A DNA stretch of 64,000 nt from an uncultured Comamonas sp. (lineage in GTDB: Bacteria > Pseudomonadota > Gammaproteobacteria > Burkholderiales > Burkholderiaceae_C). The first letter of the stretch is position 1. The number at the start of each line of letters is the position of its first letter. The stretch is from NCBI GenBank assembly GCA_947306475.1, contig CAMZGS010000006.1:137001-201000 (forward strand). The letters are read 5' to 3'. This document shows, piece by piece, positions 48,186-57,634 of the stretch. The notes below the pieces were generated by a model. That model saw only the letters and a list, made by a program, of their open reading frames with translations. It did no database searches and was not told the DNA's origin. Made by a program: the position numbers and the translations under genes.

Positions 48186-48842
48186 CTAGGCCTGTGCATC
48201 GGCTTGCTGCTCGGGGGCAGCCTGCACGAAGGCGGGCAGTTGTTCGCAGGCCTGGACGATGCGCTCAATCGTCGGATAGGCATCCGTCGGGCAGGCAAAG
48301 CGCCGCGCGTTGAACACCTGGGGCACCAGGCAGCAGTCGGCCAGGCTGGGCGTATCGCCGTGGCAGAAGCGTCCGGTGGCGCTGCTGCTGGTGAGCATGG
48401 TTTCCATGGCGCTCAGGCCCTCGCGGATCCAGTGCTGGTACCAGGCGGTTTTCTGTTCATCGGACAGGGACAGCTCCTGCGTCAGGTAGCGCAGCACGCG
48501 CAGGTTGTTGAGCGGGTGGATCTCGCAGGCCACCGCCTGGGCCAGGGCGCGTACGCGCGCACGGCCCAGGGTGTCGGCTGGCAGCAGGGCCGGCGTGTCG
48601 GGATAGGCCTCATCCAGGTACTCCATGATGGCCAGCGACTGGGTCAGCACGTTGCCCTCTTCGGTGCGCAGCGACGGCACCAGCTGCTGCGGGTTGATGG
48701 CGCGGTAGGCTGCGCTGTGGTGCTGGCCGCCGTCATGGACCAGATGGACGAACTCCGACGCATAGGGCAGGCCCTTGAGCCCCAGGGCAATGCGAACGCG
48801 GTAGGCCGCCGAGCTGCGAAAGTAGGTGTAAAGCGTGAGCAT
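48186..48842 (-). CDS. maiA: Maleylacetoacetate/maleylpyruvate isomerase (zeta-class GST)
   Basis: 218 residues. The N-terminal thioredoxin-like motif is SSAAYRVRIAL (residues 10-20), where maleylacetoacetate isomerases usually have SSCSxRVRIAL; NPQQLVPSL and the C-terminal SLADCCLVPQVFNARRF fit the zeta class. It would isomerise the cis ring-cleavage product (maleylpyruvate or maleylacetoacetate) with glutathione. It is the last gene of the aromatic-compound operon starting at 56611. Substrate is uncertain because homogentisate and gentisate pathways use close relatives. Confidence 0.88.
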   Translation of the reverse strand: MLTLYTYFRSSAAYRVRIALGLKGLPYASEFVHLVHDGGQHHSAAYRAINPQQLVPSLRTEEGNVLTQSLAIMEYLDEAYPDTPALLPADTLGRARVRALAQAVACEIHPLNNLRVLRYLTQELSLSDEQKTAWYQHWIREGLSAMETMLTSSSATGRFCHGDTPSLADCCLVPQVFNARRFACPTDAYPTIERIVQACEQLPAFVQAAPEQQADAQA

Positions 48843-48869
48843 GGGAAACAGTGCCTCCTCGTTCCTTTT

Positions 48870-50192
48870 TTAATTGAGCATGTGAACCAGCCACAGCGAC
48901 AGCCCCGGCACCAGCATCAGCAGGACCGTGCGCACCAGGTCGGACAGGACGAAGGGCAGGGTGCCCTTGTAGGTTTCCTTCATTGGCACGTTCTTGGCCA
49001 TGCTGTTGATGATGAACAGGTTCATGCCCACCGGCGGCGTGATCAAGCCGATTTCCACCACCATCAGCGCCAGCACGCCAAACCAGATGGCCTTGTCGGT
49101 CTGGTCCAGCCCCCAGAAGTCCAGCCCCAGCACGATGGGCAGGAAGATGGGGATGGTCAGCAGCAGCATGGACAGGCTATCCATCACGCAGCCCAGCACC
49201 AGGTAGATCAGCACGATGCCCGTCAGCACCAGCATGGGCGGCAGGTCGGCGCCCAGCACCCACTGGGCTGCCGCAGTGGGCATTTGCGACAGGGCGAAGA
49301 AGGCATTGAGCAGGTCGGCGCCCAGCAGGATCAGGAAGATCATGGCAGTGGCCGAGGCGGTATCCATGGCCGATTGCAGGAAGCTCTTCCAGGTCAGCTC
49401 GCGCATGAACAGCGCCAGCGCACCGGTGGCCATGGTGCCGATGGCCGCCGCTTCGGTGGGCGTGAAGATGCCGCCGTAGATGCCGCCAATCACGGTGACG
49501 AACACCGCCAGGATGGGCCAGACCTCAACCAGCGTGCGCCAACGATCCGGCCAGCTGACGCGTGGTGCGGCCGGGCCACTGCCGGGCGAGACACGCACGT
49601 ACACCATGATGGTGATCATGTAGCCGGCAAGTGCCACCAGCCCCGGCAGCATGGCGGCGATGAACATGGAGGCAACGTTCTGCTCGGCCAGCACGGCATA
49701 GATCACCAGCACCACGGAGGGTGGAATCAGCACCCCCATGGTGCCGCCGGCGGCCAGCGCACCGGTGGCCAGGGCGGGCGAGTAGTTGTAGCGGCGCAGC
49801 TCCGGCAGGGCCACCTGCCCCATGGTGGCTGCCGTGGCCAGGGACGAGCCGCAGATGGCACCAAAGCCGGCGCAGGCGCCCACCGCACTCATGGCCACAC
49901 CGCCACGGTAGTGGCCCAGGAAGGCGTTGGTCGCCTGGAACAGGCGCCGCGACAGGCCGCCGCGCGAGGCCAGGTTGCCCATCAGCAGAAACAGTGGCAC
50001 GACCGACAGGTCATAGACCGAATAGCGCGCAAACGCCATGGTCTTGGCGTAGTTGAGCAGCGGCTCCAGACCCGCCACCATGGCGTAGCCGATACCGCCT
50101 GCCAGCAGCATGGATACCGCAATGTGCACGCGCAGCATCAGCAGCACCAGCACCAGGATGCCCATGAGAAATCCGATGGTCACTCCGCTCAT
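48870..50192 (-). CDS. dctM: TRAP transporter large permease (DctM family)
   Basis: 440 residues from the ATG at 50192 (MSGVTIGFLMGILV), preceded by GGAGGT and overlapping the small permease stop (ATGA). About twelve hydrophobic helices; LITPPVGMNLFIIN and TEAAAIG loops are typical of DctM. With DctQ and DctP it takes up an organic acid using the sodium or proton gradient. Context points to an aromatic or related carboxylate. Confidence 0.93.
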   Translation of the reverse strand: MSGVTIGFLMGILVLVLLMLRVHIAVSMLLAGGIGYAMVAGLEPLLNYAKTMAFARYSVYDLSVVPLFLLMGNLASRGGLSRRLFQATNAFLGHYRGGVAMSAVGACAGFGAICGSSLATAATMGQVALPELRRYNYSPALATGALAAGGTMGVLIPPSVVLVIYAVLAEQNVASMFIAAMLPGLVALAGYMITIMVYVRVSPGSGPAAPRVSWPDRWRTLVEVWPILAVFVTVIGGIYGGIFTPTEAAAIGTMATGALALFMRELTWKSFLQSAMDTASATAMIFLILLGADLLNAFFALSQMPTAAAQWVLGADLPPMLVLTGIVLIYLVLGCVMDSLSMLLLTIPIFLPIVLGLDFWGLDQTDKAIWFGVLALMVVEIGLITPPVGMNLFIINSMAKNVPMKETYKGTLPFVLSDLVRTVLLMLVPGLSLWLVHMLN

Positions 50193-50731
50193 GCTGCACC
50201 TCCAAGTTTCTTGCTTTGCGTCCAGGCGGTGTACAGCGCCGTGAGCGTCAACAGGGCAAAGCCGGGAGCAATGGTGATGTGTGCCCACCACAGGGGCCAG
50301 TCCAGAATCATGGAGGCCTCACCGTTGTGGTAGGCGTCGATGGCGCCGACCAGGCTGCGCCAGGCCAGCCAGGCCGAGAGGCAGGCCAGCAGGATGGCGG
50401 CCAGCATGTCCAGCCAGGCGCGCAGGCGCGGCCCGGCGTTGTGGGTGAAAAAGTCCACGATGACGTGGGCGTTCTTCATCTGCGCGTACGGCAGAAAGGC
50501 TGCAATGGCCAGCGAGCAGCCGATCTGCACCAGCTCCACGTCGCCCATCACCGGGCTTTCAAACAGGGCGCGGCCCAGCACGCTCCAGGTGGAAACGACG
50601 CAGATCGCCAGCAACAGGGCAATGCCGCCCAGGGCAGACAACTGGGACCAGGCCAGCAGAAAGCGGCCTATCGGATCTTGGGGCAGGCTTGGGTCGGGAG
50701 CCCCATCGGGGGCGCTAAAAACTTCGGCCAT
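50189..50731 (-). CDS. dctQ: TRAP transporter small permease (DctQ family)
   Basis: 180 residues from the ATG at 50731 (MAEVFSAPDG), with GGAGG upstream. Four transmembrane helices and the VLGRALFESPVMGDVELVQIG segment are DctQ-like. It overlaps dctM by four bases. An intergenic palindromic repeat lies between it and dctP. Confidence 0.9.
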   Translation of the reverse strand: MAEVFSAPDGAPDPSLPQDPIGRFLLAWSQLSALGGIALLLAICVVSTWSVLGRALFESPVMGDVELVQIGCSLAIAAFLPYAQMKNAHVIVDFFTHNAGPRLRAWLDMLAAILLACLSAWLAWRSLVGAIDAYHNGEASMILDWPLWWAHITIAPGFALLTLTALYTAWTQSKKLGGAA

Positions 50732-50831
50732 GGTGGTGTGCCTCCAGCACAGGGTCAGACTCGGCCATGCTGCACCGCCAGGGCGGGCAGCAGGCACAAG
50801 CAAGGTTTGGGATAAAAAGTGGCTTTTGGCC

Positions 50832-50868
50832 TTATGGGGCAAGCGCTGCAAGCTATCTTTTTAGCGCC
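50832..50868. repeat. Short-form palindromic repeat between dctQ and dctP
   Basis: ATGGGGCAAGCGCTGCAAGCTATCTTTTTAGCG. It shares ATGGGGCAAGCGCTG with the copy inside miaA and lacks a full left arm. Confidence 0.55.
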
Positions 50869-50900
50869 TTACCCCAGAGGCGGAGGGGCCTGGGCGGGAC

Positions 50901-51941
50901 TTACTTCCTGGCGGCGTACTCGGCCGAAAGGCGGCGTGCAGTGTCCAGCATTTCCTGGCCGGGATAGCCCTTGGCGGTGACCTCCTTCACCCAGTCAGAG
51001 GCGACGCGGGCCGTGGCCTTTTGGAAGCCTTCCATCTCCTTGTCGTCGATGGTGTTGAACTTGTTGCCACGATCCAGGGCGGGCTGGCGTGACGCAGCGG
51101 CCGACTCATCCCAGATGCGGCCAATGGCGGCAGAGAAATCCGCGCCCGAGTTGTCGTCAATGACCTTCTTCAGCTGCGGCGGCAGGCTGTCGTACTTGGC
51201 CTGGTTCATGGCGATGGTGAACACGGCGGTGTACAGCGCTGGCTGCGGTGCAGTGAATTCCGAGTGGTACTTGGTCATCTCGTGCAGCTTCATGGTGGGC
51301 ACCACTTCCCAGGGCAGCACGTAGCCATCGACCACGCCCTTGGAGACGGCATCCGGTGTTTGCGGCATGGGCATGGCCACGGGGGTGGCGCCCAGGGCGG
51401 CAATCATCTTGTTGGTCAGACGCGTGGGGGCGCGCATCTTCAGACCACGGAAGTCGGACACCTTGGTGATGGGACGCTTGTTGTTGTGCACCTGGCCGCG
51501 GTCATGCACGTGGAAGGCAATCGCTTTGAGACCGGCAAAGTCCTTCTTGCCATAGGCCTGGTAGATGTCCCAGACAGCGCGGCTGCCGCTTTCCGAGTCC
51601 TGCACCAGGAAGGGAATTTCCATCACTTCCACCGAGGGGAAGCGCCCTGCGGTGTAGCCCGGCAGCGTCCAGATCACATCGGCCACGCCATCGATGGCCT
51701 GCTGGATGAGCTGTGCCGGCGTGCCGCCCAGTTGCATGGCGGGGTAGATCTGGCATTGCAGCTGGTTGTCGGACTCCTTGGCGATCTTGGCGCACCAGGG
51801 CTCCAGCACCTTCTGGTGCGACAGGGCGGTGGGTGGCCAGAAGTGGGCCACCTTGAGCACGATGGGTTCTGCTGCCTGGGCAGCAAAGCCTACGGTGGCC
51901 AGTGCGGCGGCAATGAGTGTTTTTTTGATGTGTTGGCGCAT
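50901..51941 (-). CDS. dctP: TRAP transporter periplasmic substrate-binding protein (DctP family)
   Basis: 346 residues from the ATG at 51941, with a signal peptide (MRQHIKKTLIAAALATVGFA, cleaved after AQA). LKVAHFWPPTALSHQKVLEPW, the arginine-containing RGLKMRAPTRLTNKMI carboxylate clamp region and YVLPWEVVPTMKL are typical. It binds the organic acid in the periplasm for DctQM. A GGAGA site precedes the start. The ligand cannot be read from sequence. Confidence 0.93.
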   Translation of the reverse strand: MRQHIKKTLIAAALATVGFAAQAAEPIVLKVAHFWPPTALSHQKVLEPWCAKIAKESDNQLQCQIYPAMQLGGTPAQLIQQAIDGVADVIWTLPGYTAGRFPSVEVMEIPFLVQDSESGSRAVWDIYQAYGKKDFAGLKAIAFHVHDRGQVHNNKRPITKVSDFRGLKMRAPTRLTNKMIAALGATPVAMPMPQTPDAVSKGVVDGYVLPWEVVPTMKLHEMTKYHSEFTAPQPALYTAVFTIAMNQAKYDSLPPQLKKVIDDNSGADFSAAIGRIWDESAAASRQPALDRGNKFNTIDDKEMEGFQKATARVASDWVKEVTAKGYPGQEMLDTARRLSAEYAARK

Positions 51942-51996
51942 GTTTGTCTCCGAATCGTGATGGGGCGTGCGGGCGGCCATGGCCCGCAACGGGGGG

Positions 51997-53010
51997 TCAG
52001 CCGAGGCTGTGGCTATCGACGGTGTTCTGGATCGTGCCGAAGATGTTTTCGCCCTGGGCGTTGAACATCTCGATGCGCACCTTATCACCGTGGCGCATGA
52101 AGGGGGTGACGGGCTTGCCCTGCTCGATGGTTTCGTAGGTGCGCACCTCCGCCAGGCAGCAGTAGCCCACGCCGCCGTTGGCGATCGACGAACCCCACAG
52201 GCTGCCCTGTTTGTTCGACACCGTGCCCGAGCCAATGATGGAGCCGGCGCACAGCGTGCGCGTCTTGGCCACGTGGGCGATCAGCTGGGCGAAGTTGAAG
52301 GTCACATCCACGCCGGCGTTGGGCTTGCCAAACAGCTGGTCGTTCAGGTGCACCACCAGGGGCAGCTTCACCGTGGTGTTCTGCCAGGCATCGCCCAGCT
52401 CGTCGGGCGTGACGGCCACAGGGCTGAAGGCGCTGGCTGGCTTGCTCTGGAAGAAGCCAAAACCCTTGGCCAGTTCGGCAGGAATCAGGTTGCGCAGCGA
52501 CACGTCATTGACCAGCATCACCAGGCGAATGGCCTTGGCGGCCTGCTCGGGTGTGGCACCCATGGGCACGTCGCCGGTGACGACGGTCACCTCGGCCTCG
52601 AAGTCGATGCCCCACTCTTCCCTGGCCACCACCTTGTCGGTGGGGGCAATGAAGCCGTCGCTGCAACCCTGGTACATCAGCGGGTCGGTGTAGAAGCTGG
52701 CCGGCACCTCGGCGTTGCGCGCCCGGCGCACCAGCTCCACGTGGTTGATGTAGGCCGAGCCATCGGCCCACTGCCAGGTGCGTGGCAGGGGGCTGTGGCA
52801 GGCGGCCTGGTCAAAGGGCTCGCCCTCCAAGGCGCCGCTGTTCAGGGCTTCATAGACCTGGCGCAGCTGGGGCTCCACAGTGGCCCAGTCGTCCATGGCA
52901 GCCAGCATGGTGCGGGCAATGGCAGGCACGGCGCGGCAGCGCGACAGATCGCGGCTGACGACGACCAGCGTGCCGTCACGACCGCCTTGCTTGAGGGTGG
53001 CAAGTTTCAT
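51997..53010 (-). CDS. Fumarylacetoacetate hydrolase family protein
   Basis: 337 residues, FAH superfamily with the long N-terminal domain. The metal-binding core shows GIDFEAEVTVVTGDV (acidic ligands), MLVNDVSLRNL and SGTVSNKQGSLWGSS. It would hydrolyse the C-C bond of an isomerised ring-cleavage product (fumarylpyruvate or fumarylacetoacetate). It stands between the VOC protein and the TRAP transporter in the same operon, consistent with the last catabolic step. Confidence 0.9.
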   Translation of the reverse strand: MKLATLKQGGRDGTLVVVSRDLSRCRAVPAIARTMLAAMDDWATVEPQLRQVYEALNSGALEGEPFDQAACHSPLPRTWQWADGSAYINHVELVRRARNAEVPASFYTDPLMYQGCSDGFIAPTDKVVAREEWGIDFEAEVTVVTGDVPMGATPEQAAKAIRLVMLVNDVSLRNLIPAELAKGFGFFQSKPASAFSPVAVTPDELGDAWQNTTVKLPLVVHLNDQLFGKPNAGVDVTFNFAQLIAHVAKTRTLCAGSIIGSGTVSNKQGSLWGSSIANGGVGYCCLAEVRTYETIEQGKPVTPFMRHGDKVRIEMFNAQGENIFGTIQNTVDSHSLG

Positions 53011-53055
53011 GGAAGGGAGTCCTTTCTCTTTCTCTCTGAGAGGGGTGATGGGGGG

Positions 53056-53601
53056 TTACTCGACGTAGCTGCCGTCGTGCATCCAGGCAGCGTGCTTGGG
53101 CGCCTTCTTGGTGCGCTCCCACTCGTTGAGCATGTCCCACTTCACGGCATCGAGCATCTGGTTCATCTTGGGCGTGGCGGTGTCGGCAGCCAGCTCCAGG
53201 CGGTGCCCCGAGGGGTCACGGAAGTAGATCGACTTGAAGATGGTGTGGTCGGTGGGGCCCACCACTTCGATGCCATCGGCTTCCAGACGCGCCTTGACCC
53301 GCAGCAGGGTATCGACGGAGTCCACGCGCAGCGCCAGGTGCTGCGTCCACGCCGGGGTGTTGGCATCGGACGGGGCGATCATGGGCGGCTTGGTGGGCAG
53401 TTCGAAGAAGGCCAGGATGCTGCCTGCCCCGATGTCCAGGAAGATGTGCATGTAGGGGTCGGGTTCCTTGGTCGAGGGCACCCGATCCTCGGCAATGGCC
53501 AGGATGAAGTTGGCATCCAGATACTTCTGGTACCACTCCACGGTCTCTTTTGCGTTCTTGCAACGGTAGGCGACGTGGTGTACGCCATTGAGGAAAGCCA
53601 T
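53056..53601 (-). CDS. VOC-superfamily protein, candidate ring-cleavage dioxygenase
   Basis: 181 residues from the ATG at 53601 (MAFLNGVHHVAYRC), with AAGGAG upstream. Two beta-alpha-beta3 modules carry candidate metal ligands His9, Glu67 (FFEL), His88 (QHLALRV) and Glu136 (GHRLELAAD). This resembles both glyoxalase I and extradiol-type VOC enzymes. Since the operon has a monooxygenase, isomerase and hydrolase but no cupin dioxygenase, it is the best candidate for ring opening. The four-ligand pattern is nearer to glyoxalase, so another role is possible. Confidence 0.8.
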   Translation of the reverse strand: MAFLNGVHHVAYRCKNAKETVEWYQKYLDANFILAIAEDRVPSTKEPDPYMHIFLDIGAGSILAFFELPTKPPMIAPSDANTPAWTQHLALRVDSVDTLLRVKARLEADGIEVVGPTDHTIFKSIYFRDPSGHRLELAADTATPKMNQMLDAVKWDMLNEWERTKKAPKHAAWMHDGSYVE

Positions 53602-53641
53602 GGTTGTCTCCTTGTGCGGGTGGGGAAATGCAGGCGCAGCG

Positions 53642-53872
53642 TCAGTTGTCGAACGGCTTGCGGGCAATGGCCATGGCCTCGCGCAGCACGCTGATGTCGC
53701 CAATGTGGTTGGCCAGCAGCAGCACCAGGCGGGCGTTGACGGCCAGGCTCTGCTCGTCGCTCAGGCCCTGGTGGGTTTCGATCAGGGCTTCGTAGAAGTC
53801 ATCGCCGGGCGAGAAGGTCTGGAAGTAGCGCTTGCCGGGCTCGTTCAGATTGGGTTCGGTGATCAGTGGCAT
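53642..53872 (-). CDS. DUF2783 protein of aromatic catabolic operons
   Basis: 76 residues (MPLITEPNLNEPGKRYFQTF), with AAGGAG before the start. The family is small, soluble and of unknown function; it occurs in operons with flavin monooxygenases and ring-cleavage genes. Residues 25-60 are helical and acidic. Close spacing on both sides (23 bases from the monooxygenase, 40 from the VOC gene) indicates cotranscription; an accessory or stability role is a guess. Confidence 0.75.
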   Translation of the reverse strand: MPLITEPNLNEPGKRYFQTFSPGDDFYEALIETHQGLSDEQSLAVNARLVLLLANHIGDISVLREAMAIARKPFDN

Positions 53873-53895
53873 GGGATGTCTCCTTGGTGTTGTAG

Positions 53896-55560
53896 TCAGG
53901 CATTGCCGGTGGCGCGGGCCACGGCGGCGCGTACCTTGGCAGCGTCAAAGGCGCGCCAGCGGGCGGCGACGTGCTGGTCAGGCCGCACCAGGTAGGCGGT
54001 GCCCTCCTGCATGTCGTAGCGCTGAGCAATGGCGCCCTGCGCATCGATCAGGGTCAGCAGACCCTGCGGGGCCGTGCCCTTTTGTGCCACCACCACGGCG
54101 CGCACGCCGATGCGGTCCTGGGCCAGGCTGGCCAGCTGCTGCGCCAGTTCGGCGCTGATCTGGCTGGCATCAGTCACGTAATACAGCAATTGGAACTGGG
54201 TGTCCATGTCGCCCAGCAGCCAGCCGTTCCTGCCACCAGCAATGGGGGCATCGTCCATGGGCGCACCAGGGATCATGTTGCCGGCGAAGCTGTCGCTGTC
54301 GGGCGTGTTCAGAGGCGAATCGACCAGCCAGCTGGGCACCGACAGACGCCCCGAGTTGACCAGCGCGCGGGCAAACGGATAGTCCTGTGCCAGCTCCAGC
54401 ACGGCGTTGCGGAAGGCCTTGCTGACGTTGCTCTTGGGCGTGATGAAGTCGGTCGAGCGCGTGGAGTTCATGATGTTCTCGTCGGCGGCGTAGCAGCGCT
54501 CGGCGCTGTAGCTGTCCAGCAGCGAGGCGGGCGCCTTGCCGTCGAGCACCAGCTTGAGCTTCCAGGCCAGGTTGTCGGTGTCCTGAATGCCGCTGTTGGC
54601 GCCACGCGCACCAAAGGGCGAGACCTGGTGCGCCGCATCACCGACGAACAGCACGCGGTTGTGGTTGAAGCGCCCCATGCGGCGGCACTGGAAGGTATAG
54701 ACGCTGACCCACTCCAGCTCGAATTCGCGGTCGTCGCCCAGCATGGCCTTGATGCGCGGGATGACGTTTTCGGGTTTCTTCTCTTCCTCGGGATCGGCAT
54801 TCCAGCCCAGCTGGAAGTCGATGCGCCAGACGTTGTCGGCCTGCTTGTGCAGCAGCACCGACTGGTTGCGGTGGAAGGGCGGATCGAACCAGAACCAGCG
54901 CTCGGCCGGGTAGTCGGCCTTCATCACCACGTCGGCAATCAGGAAGCGGTCCATGAAGATCTTGCCGTCGATGTCCAGGCCCAGCATGTTGCGGATGGGC
55001 GAGCGCGCGCCGTCGGCGGCAATCAGCCAGTCGGCCGTCAGGGTGTAGGCACCGTCGGGCGTTTCCACACGCACAGTGGCCTTGCTGTCGTCCTGCTCCA
55101 CGCTGATGACATTGTTCTTGAAGCGGATCTCCAGGTTGGGCAGCTGGCGGGCGCGTGCCACCAGGAACTCTTCCAGGTAGTACTGCTGCAGGTTCACCAT
55201 GCCGGGGCGCTGATGGCCTTCCTGCGGGCGCAGGTTGAAGTTGAATACCTCCTTTTCACCAAAGAAGGTGCGGCCCACGTTCCAGGAGACCCCCTTGTCC
55301 ACGCAGGGCGTGCCGCAGCCGATGCGGTCCAGCACCTCCAGCGCGCGCTTGGCGTAGCACACGCCGCGCGAGCCGATCGAGACGGTGTCGTCGTTGTCCA
55401 GCACCAGCACGCTCTGGCCCTGCTGCGCCAGGTCGATGGCCATGGCCAGGCCCACCGGGCCGGCGCCCACCACTACCACGGGGTAGTGACCGTTGCGCTG
55501 TTCGCGCACTTCGGGGGGGCATACGTAGTCGAACTTGGGATAGGTATAGGTCTTTAGCAC
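53896..55560 (-). CDS. FAD-dependent class A aromatic monooxygenase
   Basis: 554 residues. FAD-binding GxGxxG at VVVVGAGPVGLAMAIDLA (about 28-45), the DG motif in WLIAADGARSPIRNMLG and the GD motif in VLFVGDAAHQVSPFGARGAN place it in the MhpA/PheA-type group of single-component hydroxylases. A C-terminal thioredoxin-like domain follows. It likely hydroxylates an aromatic acid or phenol using NAD(P)H and oxygen, making the ring ready for cleavage. The substrate cannot be assigned. First of the soluble catabolic enzymes after the MBL protein. Confidence 0.9.
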   Translation of the reverse strand: MLKTYTYPKFDYVCPPEVREQRNGHYPVVVVGAGPVGLAMAIDLAQQGQSVLVLDNDDTVSIGSRGVCYAKRALEVLDRIGCGTPCVDKGVSWNVGRTFFGEKEVFNFNLRPQEGHQRPGMVNLQQYYLEEFLVARARQLPNLEIRFKNNVISVEQDDSKATVRVETPDGAYTLTADWLIAADGARSPIRNMLGLDIDGKIFMDRFLIADVVMKADYPAERWFWFDPPFHRNQSVLLHKQADNVWRIDFQLGWNADPEEEKKPENVIPRIKAMLGDDREFELEWVSVYTFQCRRMGRFNHNRVLFVGDAAHQVSPFGARGANSGIQDTDNLAWKLKLVLDGKAPASLLDSYSAERCYAADENIMNSTRSTDFITPKSNVSKAFRNAVLELAQDYPFARALVNSGRLSVPSWLVDSPLNTPDSDSFAGNMIPGAPMDDAPIAGGRNGWLLGDMDTQFQLLYYVTDASQISAELAQQLASLAQDRIGVRAVVVAQKGTAPQGLLTLIDAQGAIAQRYDMQEGTAYLVRPDQHVAARWRAFDAAKVRAAVARATGNA

Positions 55561-55596
55561 GAGGGTCTCCTTGGATCTTCGGTTTGGGTCTTTCTG

Positions 55597-55645
55597 CCTT
55601 CAAACGCTTGATGGTCCTGCGCTTGCAGCTATTGTTTTTATTGGA
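55597..55645. repeat. Decayed short-form repeat between MBL and monooxygenase genes
   Basis: CAAACGCTTGATGG and GCGCTTGCAGCTATT (55602-55635) keep the AGCTGC/GCGCTTG core in scattered form, followed by GTTTTTATTGG. Weak match to the family. Confidence 0.35.
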
Positions 55646-56611
55646 TCAGTCCTTTTGCAGCGCATGCCACATTTCCTGATCGCGCTCGGCCGTCCAGATG
55701 CGCGGGTCGCGGATGCCGCTGGCCTCATCGTGGGCGCGCGTCACGTCAAAGGGCAGGCAGTGCTCGTAGATGAAGACGTGGCCGAACTTGGGATCCATGG
55801 CCTTGCGGGTGTGCTTCATGCAGGCGTTCAGGTCCATGCCCTGGGCAACGGCTTCCTGGGCGCTGCGGTACAGGGTGGTGACAAAGTCGCGCGTGTAGGC
55901 CAGACCCTTTTGCACGGCTTCGGGCGTCATCAGCGCCGGACCACGACCGGGGACGAGCTTGTCGAAGTTCATCGCGCTCAGGTTGTCCAGGGTCTGCGGC
56001 CAGTCGGCCAGGTAGGCATCGCCCGTGTAGCAGGCGGCATCGGCTTCCACCAGGTCGCCCGAGAAGCAGATCTTCTGGCTGGGGATATAGACGATGGTGT
56101 CGCCCTTGGTGTGGCCACGGCCCACCTGCTTGATCTTCACCTCCAGTTTGCCCAGCCAGACGCTCATCTCGCCTTCGAATGTCATGGTCGGCCAAGTCAG
56201 GCCGGGCACGCTCTCCACCGCCTGGAACAGGCGCGGGAAACGGCCAATTTCCGAATCCATGTCCTGCTGGCCGCGCTCGACGATCAGGTCGTAGGTGTCG
56301 CGGCTGGCGATGATCTGCTCCAGCCCCTCGTTCTTGTAGCCCGAGGCCCCCAGCACGCGTACGGCGTGGTAGTGCGTGAGCACCACGTACTTGATGGGCT
56401 TGTCGGTGATTTCGCGCACCTTGGCGATCACACCCTGGGCGGCCACCGGGGTGGCGGTGGCGTCGATGATCATGCAGCCGTCGTCGCCAATGATCACGCC
56501 GGTGTTGGGGTCACCCTCGGCGGTGTAGGCGTAGGCGTTGTCACTGAGCTTTTCCCAGCTGACCTTTTTTTCTTCCAGATCCGCCTGGGAGGCGAATTTT
56601 TTCTCACTCAT
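55646..56611 (-). CDS. Metallo-beta-lactamase-fold protein with altered HxHxDH motif
   Basis: 321 residues from the ATG at 56611 (MSEKKFASQADLEEKK), with GAAGGAG upstream. The MBL fold is clear (IIDATATPVAAQGVI, VGRGHTKGDTIVYIP with His167, CFSGDLVE with Asp186), but the first metal motif reads H80-Y-H82-A-V-R instead of HxHxDH. One metal site is therefore changed and hydrolase activity is uncertain. It is the first gene of the operon, behind a promoter divergent from lysR, so a regulatory or relay role or a hydrolysis step is possible. Confidence 0.85.
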   Translation of the reverse strand: MSEKKFASQADLEEKKVSWEKLSDNAYAYTAEGDPNTGVIIGDDGCMIIDATATPVAAQGVIAKVREITDKPIKYVVLTHYHAVRVLGASGYKNEGLEQIIASRDTYDLIVERGQQDMDSEIGRFPRLFQAVESVPGLTWPTMTFEGEMSVWLGKLEVKIKQVGRGHTKGDTIVYIPSQKICFSGDLVEADAACYTGDAYLADWPQTLDNLSAMNFDKLVPGRGPALMTPEAVQKGLAYTRDFVTTLYRSAQEAVAQGMDLNACMKHTRKAMDPKFGHVFIYEHCLPFDVTRAHDEASGIRDPRIWTAERDQEMWHALQKD

Positions 56612-56689
56612 GGGGGGTCTCCTTCTATGCAAGCCGCCACAAGCGGCCAGGGGGGGGTGTTTCCGAGCGTTATTAAAGAGGAGGAGGAT

Positions 56690-56718
56690 TTATTATTCAA
56701 ACGGTTTATTTTGATCAA
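56690..56718 (-). promoter_or_regulatory. Promoter of the aromatic-compound operon
   Basis: Minus-strand TTGATC (-35, 56713-56718), an exact 17-base spacer and TAATAA (-10, 56690-56695), about 80 bases upstream of the MBL gene ATG. It lies in the AT-rich divergent region shared with the LysR gene and overlaps the sequence where a LysR operator is expected (TTCAAACGGTTTATT). Confidence 0.6.
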
Positions 56719-56734
56719 TTTAGAAATTCTTCTC

Positions 56735-57634
56735 ATGAATGTCACCCTGCGGCAACTTCAGGCCTTCCTGGCCGTGGCACAGACCGGCAGCTTCACGCTG
56801 GCAGCCGAGCGCCTGTTCATCACCCAGTCGGCACTGAGCAGCCTGATCAAGGAGCTGGAAAACACCCTGGGCCTGCGGCTGTTTGACCGCAGCACGCGGC
56901 GCCTGCGCCTGTCGGTGGTGGGGCAGGAGCTGCATCCGCATATCGAAAAAATCCTGCAGGACCTGGAAGGCGTGGTCAGCGAGGCCGGCAACCTCAAGGC
57001 CCTGCAGCGCGGCAAGGTGCGCATTGCCGTGCCCCAGTTGCTGGCCTGCACCTTGCTGCCCGAGGTGATGGCCGACTTCAAGCGTCAGCACCCCGGCGTG
57101 CAATTGCGCCTGATCGACTGCCCCGTCGAAAGCGTCATGGCTCGCGTCTTCTCCGGCGAGGTGGACATTGGCCTAGGCCCCGAGCGCGAGACCAACTCCG
57201 ATATCGAGGCCACCGAGCTCTTCACCCTGCCCTTTATGGTGGTGGTGCCGCCCGACCACGCCTTGGCGCAGCAGAGCCAGGTGCGCTGGCAAGACATCGT
57301 CGGCCAGCCCCTGATCACCCTGCAAGGCCAATTCACCGAACTGCTGGTCAGCGACGTGGGCGAAGCCGCGCGCGAGCTGCAGCAAGACTCTTTCATGCAA
57401 GTGACCTTCATGACCACCGCCTTGGCCCTGGTGCGCGCGCGCCTGGGCATCACCTTGTGCATGCCGTATGCGCGCATGCTGGTCGAGCAAAACGGCCTGG
57501 TGATGCGCCCGCTGCTGGACCCCTCAGTGGAGCGCAGCTTCTGGGTCTTTACCCGCAAGGGGCGCACGCTGGCTCCGGCGGCTGAGGAGTTCCTGGCCTT
57601 CTTGCGGCAGGAACTGGGGCGCGATTGGCAGTAG
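56735..57634 (+). CDS. LysR-family regulator of the divergent catabolic operon
   Basis: 299 residues from the ATG at 56735 (MNVTLRQLQAFLAVAQTGSF). Typical winged HTH (AAERLFITQSALSSLIKELE) and a LysR substrate domain (GKVRIAVPQLLACTLLPEVM). It is divergent from the operon at 48186-56611 with 123 bases between start codons, the classical arrangement for an inducible activator responding to a pathway intermediate. Confidence 0.92.
   Translation: MNVTLRQLQAFLAVAQTGSFTLAAERLFITQSALSSLIKELENTLGLRLFDRSTRRLRLSVVGQELHPHIEKILQDLEGVVSEAGNLKALQRGKVRIAVPQLLACTLLPEVMADFKRQHPGVQLRLIDCPVESVMARVFSGEVDIGLGPERETNSDIEATELFTLPFMVVVPPDHALAQQSQVRWQDIVGQPLITLQGQFTELLVSDVGEAARELQQDSFMQVTFMTTALALVRARLGITLCMPYARMLVEQNGLVMRPLLDPSVERSFWVFTRKGRTLAPAAEEFLAFLRQELGRDWQ

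Follow-up and report, generated by a model that had tools for sequence, protein, structure and literature searches.

A homogentisate operon of an uncultured Comamonas in which a VOC-fold protein probably takes the place of HmgA

How does an aromatic catabolic operon open its ring when none of its genes encodes a cupin dioxygenase? The question is raised by a locus of an uncultured Comamonas sp., a betaproteobacterium whose assembly (2.92 Mb in 18 contigs) is 99.9% complete. The window, the whole stretch of 64,000 nucleotides that was analysed (positions 137,001 to 201,000 of contig CAMZGS010000006.1), holds nine minus-strand genes and a divergent gene for a LysR-type regulator, all located within 48186..57634. 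The initial annotation had described this gene set, with its common strand, its short gaps and overlap and its divergent regulator, and every gene was recovered where it had been placed. It had also claimed that no recognised ring-cleavage dioxygenase is present. Our analysis argues that this is very probably a homogentisate operon, fed by a hydroxylated aromatic acid, in which a single-domain VOC-fold enzyme would do the job of the cupin enzyme HmgA.

The candidate for the ring-opening step is a VOC protein of 181 residues (53056..53601, minus strand; Glyoxalase PF00903, 2e-17). Among solved structures its closest relative is PDB entry 9U42, deposited under the title "Homogentisate 1,2-Dioxygenase from Acinetobacter", with 54% identity in the Foldseek alignment, 1.2e-62 over 173 residues in a separate search and 1.9e-99 in a profile comparison; the two proteins are equal in length and the candidate ligands are kept. 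Given this close relation, the claim that the operon lacks a recognised ring-cleavage dioxygenase fails, and our results support the accompanying proposal of ring opening by the VOC protein, with homogentisate as the likely substrate. Residues H8, H9, H88, H119, Y126 and E136 are invariant among 14 aligned VOC sequences, and we propose H9, H88 and E136 as a candidate 2-His-1-Glu metal site. Four of the invariant positions (H88, H119, Y126 and E136) align with H214, H246, Y255 and E265 of catechol 2,3-dioxygenase (1mpy). The protein differs from the type I extradiol dioxygenases and from PcpA 2,6-dichlorohydroquinone 1,2-dioxygenase (4huz) in the length of its chain, theirs running to about 290-365 residues. 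From these relations we infer a VOC-type homogentisate 1,2-dioxygenase, its iron and its catalysis being predicted from sequence.

The predicted model of the VOC protein superposes poorly on 9U42, with a Foldseek root-mean-square deviation of 17.3 despite the identity of the two sequences, and a second aligner superposed residues 77-168 alone, at 2.4. The 9U42 crystal may pair two modules across the dimer, as FosA-like proteins do, or the model may mispack them.

The absence of a cupin dioxygenase from the operon, as first annotated, holds and extends to the whole source assembly, in which neither a PF04209 (HmgA_C) match nor, at E<=0.001, a TIGR02272 (gentisate 1,2-dioxygenase) match was obtained. 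A cupin gentisate or homogentisate dioxygenase encoded elsewhere had been allowed for; none was found in the genome, and the PF04209 search revealed no hidden HmgA. Outside the operon lies a gene for phenylalanine 4-monooxygenase (PhhA; 351 bits, cut-off 264.75) adjoining one for Hpd (367.3 bits, cut-off 277). Since PhhA and Hpd are encoded there, the operon enzymes could also serve homogentisate derived from phenylalanine and tyrosine.

Canonical HmgA would catalyse the same step and takes the same place in like operons, although it belongs to a different family. To set the two side by side, 20 HmgA loci, drawn from the 26 genomes in which HmgA matched strongly, were compared with 20 VOC loci, drawn from the 25 genomes in which VOC did. 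Five of the VOC loci (L153, L154, L155, L156 and L162) present a metallo-beta-lactamase-fold (MBL) protein, a flavin adenine dinucleotide (FAD) monooxygenase and a DUF2783 protein, followed by VOC and a protein of the fumarylacetoacetate hydrolase (FAH) family, as in the window. A monooxygenase of the window type (53-60% identity) was likewise found in five HmgA loci (L137, L138, L141, L142 and L145), four of which include DUF2783 (undetected in L138) and three MBL (L138, L142 and L145); no such monooxygenase was detected in the remaining 15. Because a like monooxygenase, DUF2783 and MBL flank either enzyme, the gene orders indicate that VOC and HmgA can occupy one and the same operon slot.

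The distribution of the two enzymes points the same way. An even order sample of 160 genomes contains 45 with Hpd above cut-off, 32 with PF04209 (26 strong matches and 6 weak ones at 21-29 bits) and 25 with a strong VOC match (>290 bits), VOC relatives of 142-182 bits (e.g. genomes G047, G085, G118, G324 and G323) being left out of the strong counts. Among the 45 Hpd-positive genomes, 20 have HmgA only, 15 VOC only, 5 both and 5 neither (Fisher p 3.1e-4). A phylum sample of 199 genomes, with 89 Hpd-positive, gives HmgA (any PF04209 match) only in 53, VOC only in 12, both in 6 and neither in 18 (p 0.0017). By these counts VOC and HmgA would tend to exclude each other among Hpd-positive genomes. 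A strong VOC match also accompanies Hpd in most cases (20/25 in the order sample, 18/22 in the phylum sample), and the gene lies 3' of Hpd on the same strand, with less than 250 bases between the matched stretches, in six order-sample genomes and at nine places in eight phylum-sample genomes, among which G321 is also HmgA-positive.

The weak PF04209 matches include frames of 376-417 residues lying within about 2 kb of Hpd (G031, G072, G109, G106 and G020), which perhaps encode a divergent cupin homogentisate dioxygenase.

The genes that would act after ring opening are present in the same operon. The maleylacetoacetate isomerase MaiA, a zeta-type glutathione S-transferase (48186..48842, minus strand), scores 298.9 bits against TIGR01262 (cut-off 171.05). 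The FAH-family protein of 337 residues (51997..53010, minus strand), a proposed fumarylacetoacetase, matches both PF18288 and PF01557 above cut-off, and its best solved relative is 3lzk (fumarylacetoacetate hydrolase family protein, E 6.7e-130). Read 5' to 3', the minus-strand order is MBL, FAD monooxygenase, DUF2783, VOC, FAH, DctP, DctQ, DctM and MaiA, with gaps of 85, 23, 40, 45, 55, 169, -4 and 27 bases for the chosen start codons, sizes as expected of a single operon. The loci L009, L010 (Comamonas denitrificans) and L024 hold relatives of all these genes in identical order, so the gene set is not a product of chance.

The 80 best of 495 candidate loci retrieved with the VOC protein were compared as close relatives, many of them cut by contig ends. 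They contain FAH in 62, MaiA in 31, a monooxygenase of the window type in 47 and another monooxygenase in 10, DUF2783 in 48, MBL in 50, Hpd in 3 and HmgA in none. In the 56 loci with 5 kb on each side, the respective counts are 44, 26, 36, 7, 36, 40, 2 and 0. In the loci typified by L026, a different hydrolase replacing FAH was considered and set aside: of all the loci searched, L025 and L020 alone show the downstream protein again, and it lacks Pfam matches at 1e-5; FAH is for this reason probably unlinked there. Frames picked by length in L026, L034, L151, L161, L164 and L165 matched no families or unrelated ones, and at least one (L151) is out of frame with VOC; they were given no weight.

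In other lineages the VOC gene lies among other genes of homogentisate routes. The order is hppD-VOC-fahA in Ideonella dechloratans, Hpd-VOC-FahA in Novosphingobium (by BLAST) and fahA-maiA-VOC-IclR-hppD in Acinetobacter baumannii. The A. baumannii gene, of the 9U42 type, thus lies with maiA and fahA as in the window; its 16.5 kb locus differs in holding hppD and IclR and in showing no detected relative of the flavin monooxygenase, MBL or the TRAP transporter.

Two further observations concern the VOC family at large. More distant relatives (about 43-48% identity) adjoin alpha/beta hydrolases (L096 and L098) or, in L096 (with DUF2783) and L127, an FAD oxidoreductase, and may point to cleavage of other ring substrates. 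On the Enterobacter plasmid pJBIWA005_2 (L091), typed as conjugative IncFII, genes for VOC, a major facilitator superfamily transporter, FAH, MaiA and LysR lie between transposase genes, a context that suggests a module capable of transfer from one bacterium to another.

What feeds the route is less evident. The window operon encodes, next to each other, a class A FAD monooxygenase (53896..55560, minus strand; NCBIfam PRK08132, 863.7 bits, cut-off 416) and a DUF2783 protein of 76 residues (53642..53872, minus strand; PF10932, 8.8e-30). We propose from their sequences that they are the large component and the small coupling component of a hydroxylase like MhaAB, making homogentisate. The 3-hydroxyphenylacetate 6-hydroxylase MhaAB of Pseudomonas putida U and Paraburkholderia xenovorans LB400 likewise combines an FAD monooxygenase of about 560 residues with a small coupling protein, though the latter has 60 residues and accompanies HmgA where the window has VOC. 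In LB400, according to PMC3053370, hmgA1B1C1 lies next to genes for a flavoprotein of 560 residues and a protein of 60 residues, which share 47% and 35% identity with the MhaA and MhaB proteins of P. putida U, respectively. Acinetobacter SAAs474 encodes an FAD monooxygenase of 569 residues and a protein of 61 residues near fahA-maiA-VOC, and relatives of this pair (53-56% for the large protein) lie directly before VOC in five loci. The likeness to MhaAB was judged through homologues in locus L090 and descriptions of the P. putida U and LB400 proteins rather than their sequences; DUF2783 against an MhaB-like profile gave a probability of 69 and E 4.3e-5 over 49 columns, which is suggestive only, and no Pfam match was obtained for the MhaB-like protein of L090. 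On balance we lean slightly towards a hydroxyphenylacetate as entry substrate, hydroxylated to homogentisate, leaving the choice between the 3- and 4-isomers undecided.

Put together, the proposed mechanism would run as follows. The TRAP transporter, formed by the substrate-binding protein DctP (50901..51941), the small permease DctQ (50189..50731) and the large permease DctM (48870..50192), all on the minus strand and assigned by Pfam, would take up the aromatic acid, for which 3- or 4-hydroxyphenylacetate is the most likely candidate. The FAD monooxygenase and its small DUF2783 partner would convert it to homogentisate (2,5-dihydroxyphenylacetate), which the VOC protein would open with O2 to maleylacetoacetate, using an iron bound by two histidines and one glutamate. 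The zeta-type transferase would isomerise this to fumarylacetoacetate, and the FAH protein would split the latter into fumarate and acetoacetate. The LysR-type regulator (56735..57634, plus strand; Pfam HTH_1 and LysR_substrate, with a start codon chosen by us) is the presumed switch of the operon. The homogentisate steps are well supported, and the entry substrate is what we infer from the likeness to MhaAB. The first minus-strand gene encodes the MBL protein of 321 residues (55646..56611; Lactamase_B, 1.1e-13); among solved structures, 8d2z is very closely related to it (1.2e-153) and is labelled merely as a superfamily protein.

Several points weigh against this proposal. The identity of 9U42 as an enzyme rests on its deposition title, and the structure holds Zn. 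The Fisher tests ignore the relatedness of genomes, the order and phylum samples share genomes, and the exclusion in the order sample weakens to p 0.034 if weak PF04209 matches are taken as absent. Both enzymes are present in five Hpd-positive genomes of the order sample and in six of the phylum sample, and a strong VOC match stands without Hpd in 5/25 and 4/22 genomes, respectively. With neither a strong VOC match nor HmgA in 18 of the 89 phylum-sample Hpd-positive genomes, other enzymes must exist; a more distant VOC relative, uncounted, occurs in three of the five genomes of this class in the order sample and in four of the 18 in the phylum sample. Among the 80 close-relative loci, FAH was not recognised in the vicinity in 18, and just three have Hpd. 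The FAH protein has no fumarylacetoacetase equivalog among its NCBIfam matches, and the identity between the window monooxygenase and the MhaA-like protein of L090 is a mere 35%. Finally, Fonseca 2020 (PMC7646211) places a gene encoding a type I ring-cleaving dioxygenase domain between hmgC and hmgR of A. baumannii and judges it probably inactive.

Three other explanations were considered. The one that survives best, though we regard it as unlikely, keeps the VOC protein as the enzyme that opens homogentisate and assigns the operon mainly to tyrosine and phenylalanine, with a monooxygenase acting on something unrelated to homogentisate. PhhA and Hpd are indeed encoded in the genome, and three loci (L043, L071 and L076) consist of LysR-VOC-FAH-MaiA with no detected monooxygenase; on the other hand, the monooxygenase and DUF2783 adjoin VOC or HmgA in many loci, and homologues of the MhaAB pair adjoin hmgABC in LB400 (PMC3053370).

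It is very improbable that the substrate of the VOC protein is another para-diol, for example gentisate or hydroquinone, and the operon a gentisate-type route. The gentisate route, part of the original proposal, is unsupported, since the isomerase scores as MaiA with TIGR01262, the best relative of the FAH protein is 3lzk and the recurrent neighbours elsewhere are Hpd, MaiA and FahA; the repeated adjacency to Hpd, the exchange with HmgA and the title of 9U42 also speak for homogentisate, and with the genome lacking a TIGR02272 match we dropped it. Marginally less probable still is an accessory glyoxalase-like or isomerase role for the VOC protein, with an unrelated enzyme elsewhere opening the ring, which agrees with the bare Pfam name Glyoxalase, with weak FosB matches and with the opinion of Fonseca 2020 that the A. 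baumannii relative is probably inactive, but is opposed by a genome with no HmgA or gentisate dioxygenase match, by the presence of VOC in the place of HmgA in like operons and by the conserved residues of the extradiol second module.

The VOC-type homogentisate dioxygenase thus preferred is little visible in the literature. The matches listed in our searches include no paper on such an enzyme or on 9U42, subscription papers being mostly outside their coverage, and there were zero matches for 9U42 and for homogentisate paired with VOC family protein. For A. baumannii, Fonseca 2020 reports strain AB4353 to be without an hmgA homologue, and the record NZ_CP104448 (4.09 Mb), from a strain other than that of the gene order given above, gave no PF04209 match. 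Zhao 2022 (PMC9431530) reports that a gene termed hmgA removed the pigment from a pyomelanin-producing A. baumannii; the short target-site duplication given there has a single occurrence in the A. baumannii locus L093 (8.5 kb), within the VOC gene, weak evidence with 1.01 occurrences expected by chance. The reference coordinates for hmgA in PMC11945678 span 633 bases, which is the length of maiA in the A. baumannii locus L089, so the name hmgA is used loosely.

Because the Protein Data Bank lists a family member as homogentisate 1,2-dioxygenase, this is not a new kind of enzyme or pathway; it is a variant of the homogentisate route and an under-annotated displacement of HmgA. We consider it rather probable that many Alpha-, Beta- and Gammaproteobacteria have exchanged HmgA for a second homogentisate dioxygenase of separate evolutionary origin, a single-domain VOC-fold enzyme, and that in Betaproteobacteria its substrate often comes from a two-component hydroxylase that has gone unrecognised and has DUF2783 as its coupling protein. 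If true, DUF2783 would gain a testable role, and many proteobacterial genes would gain a name, the homogentisate-type VOC gene being often labelled merely "VOC family protein". The finding also bears on pyomelanin in A. baumannii, where papers speak of hmgA and yet one near-chromosome-size record that we searched has no HmgA match. More generally, genomes with Hpd and no HmgA seem to stop at homogentisate and would be expected to turn brown; in part of them, the VOC family would close this gap.

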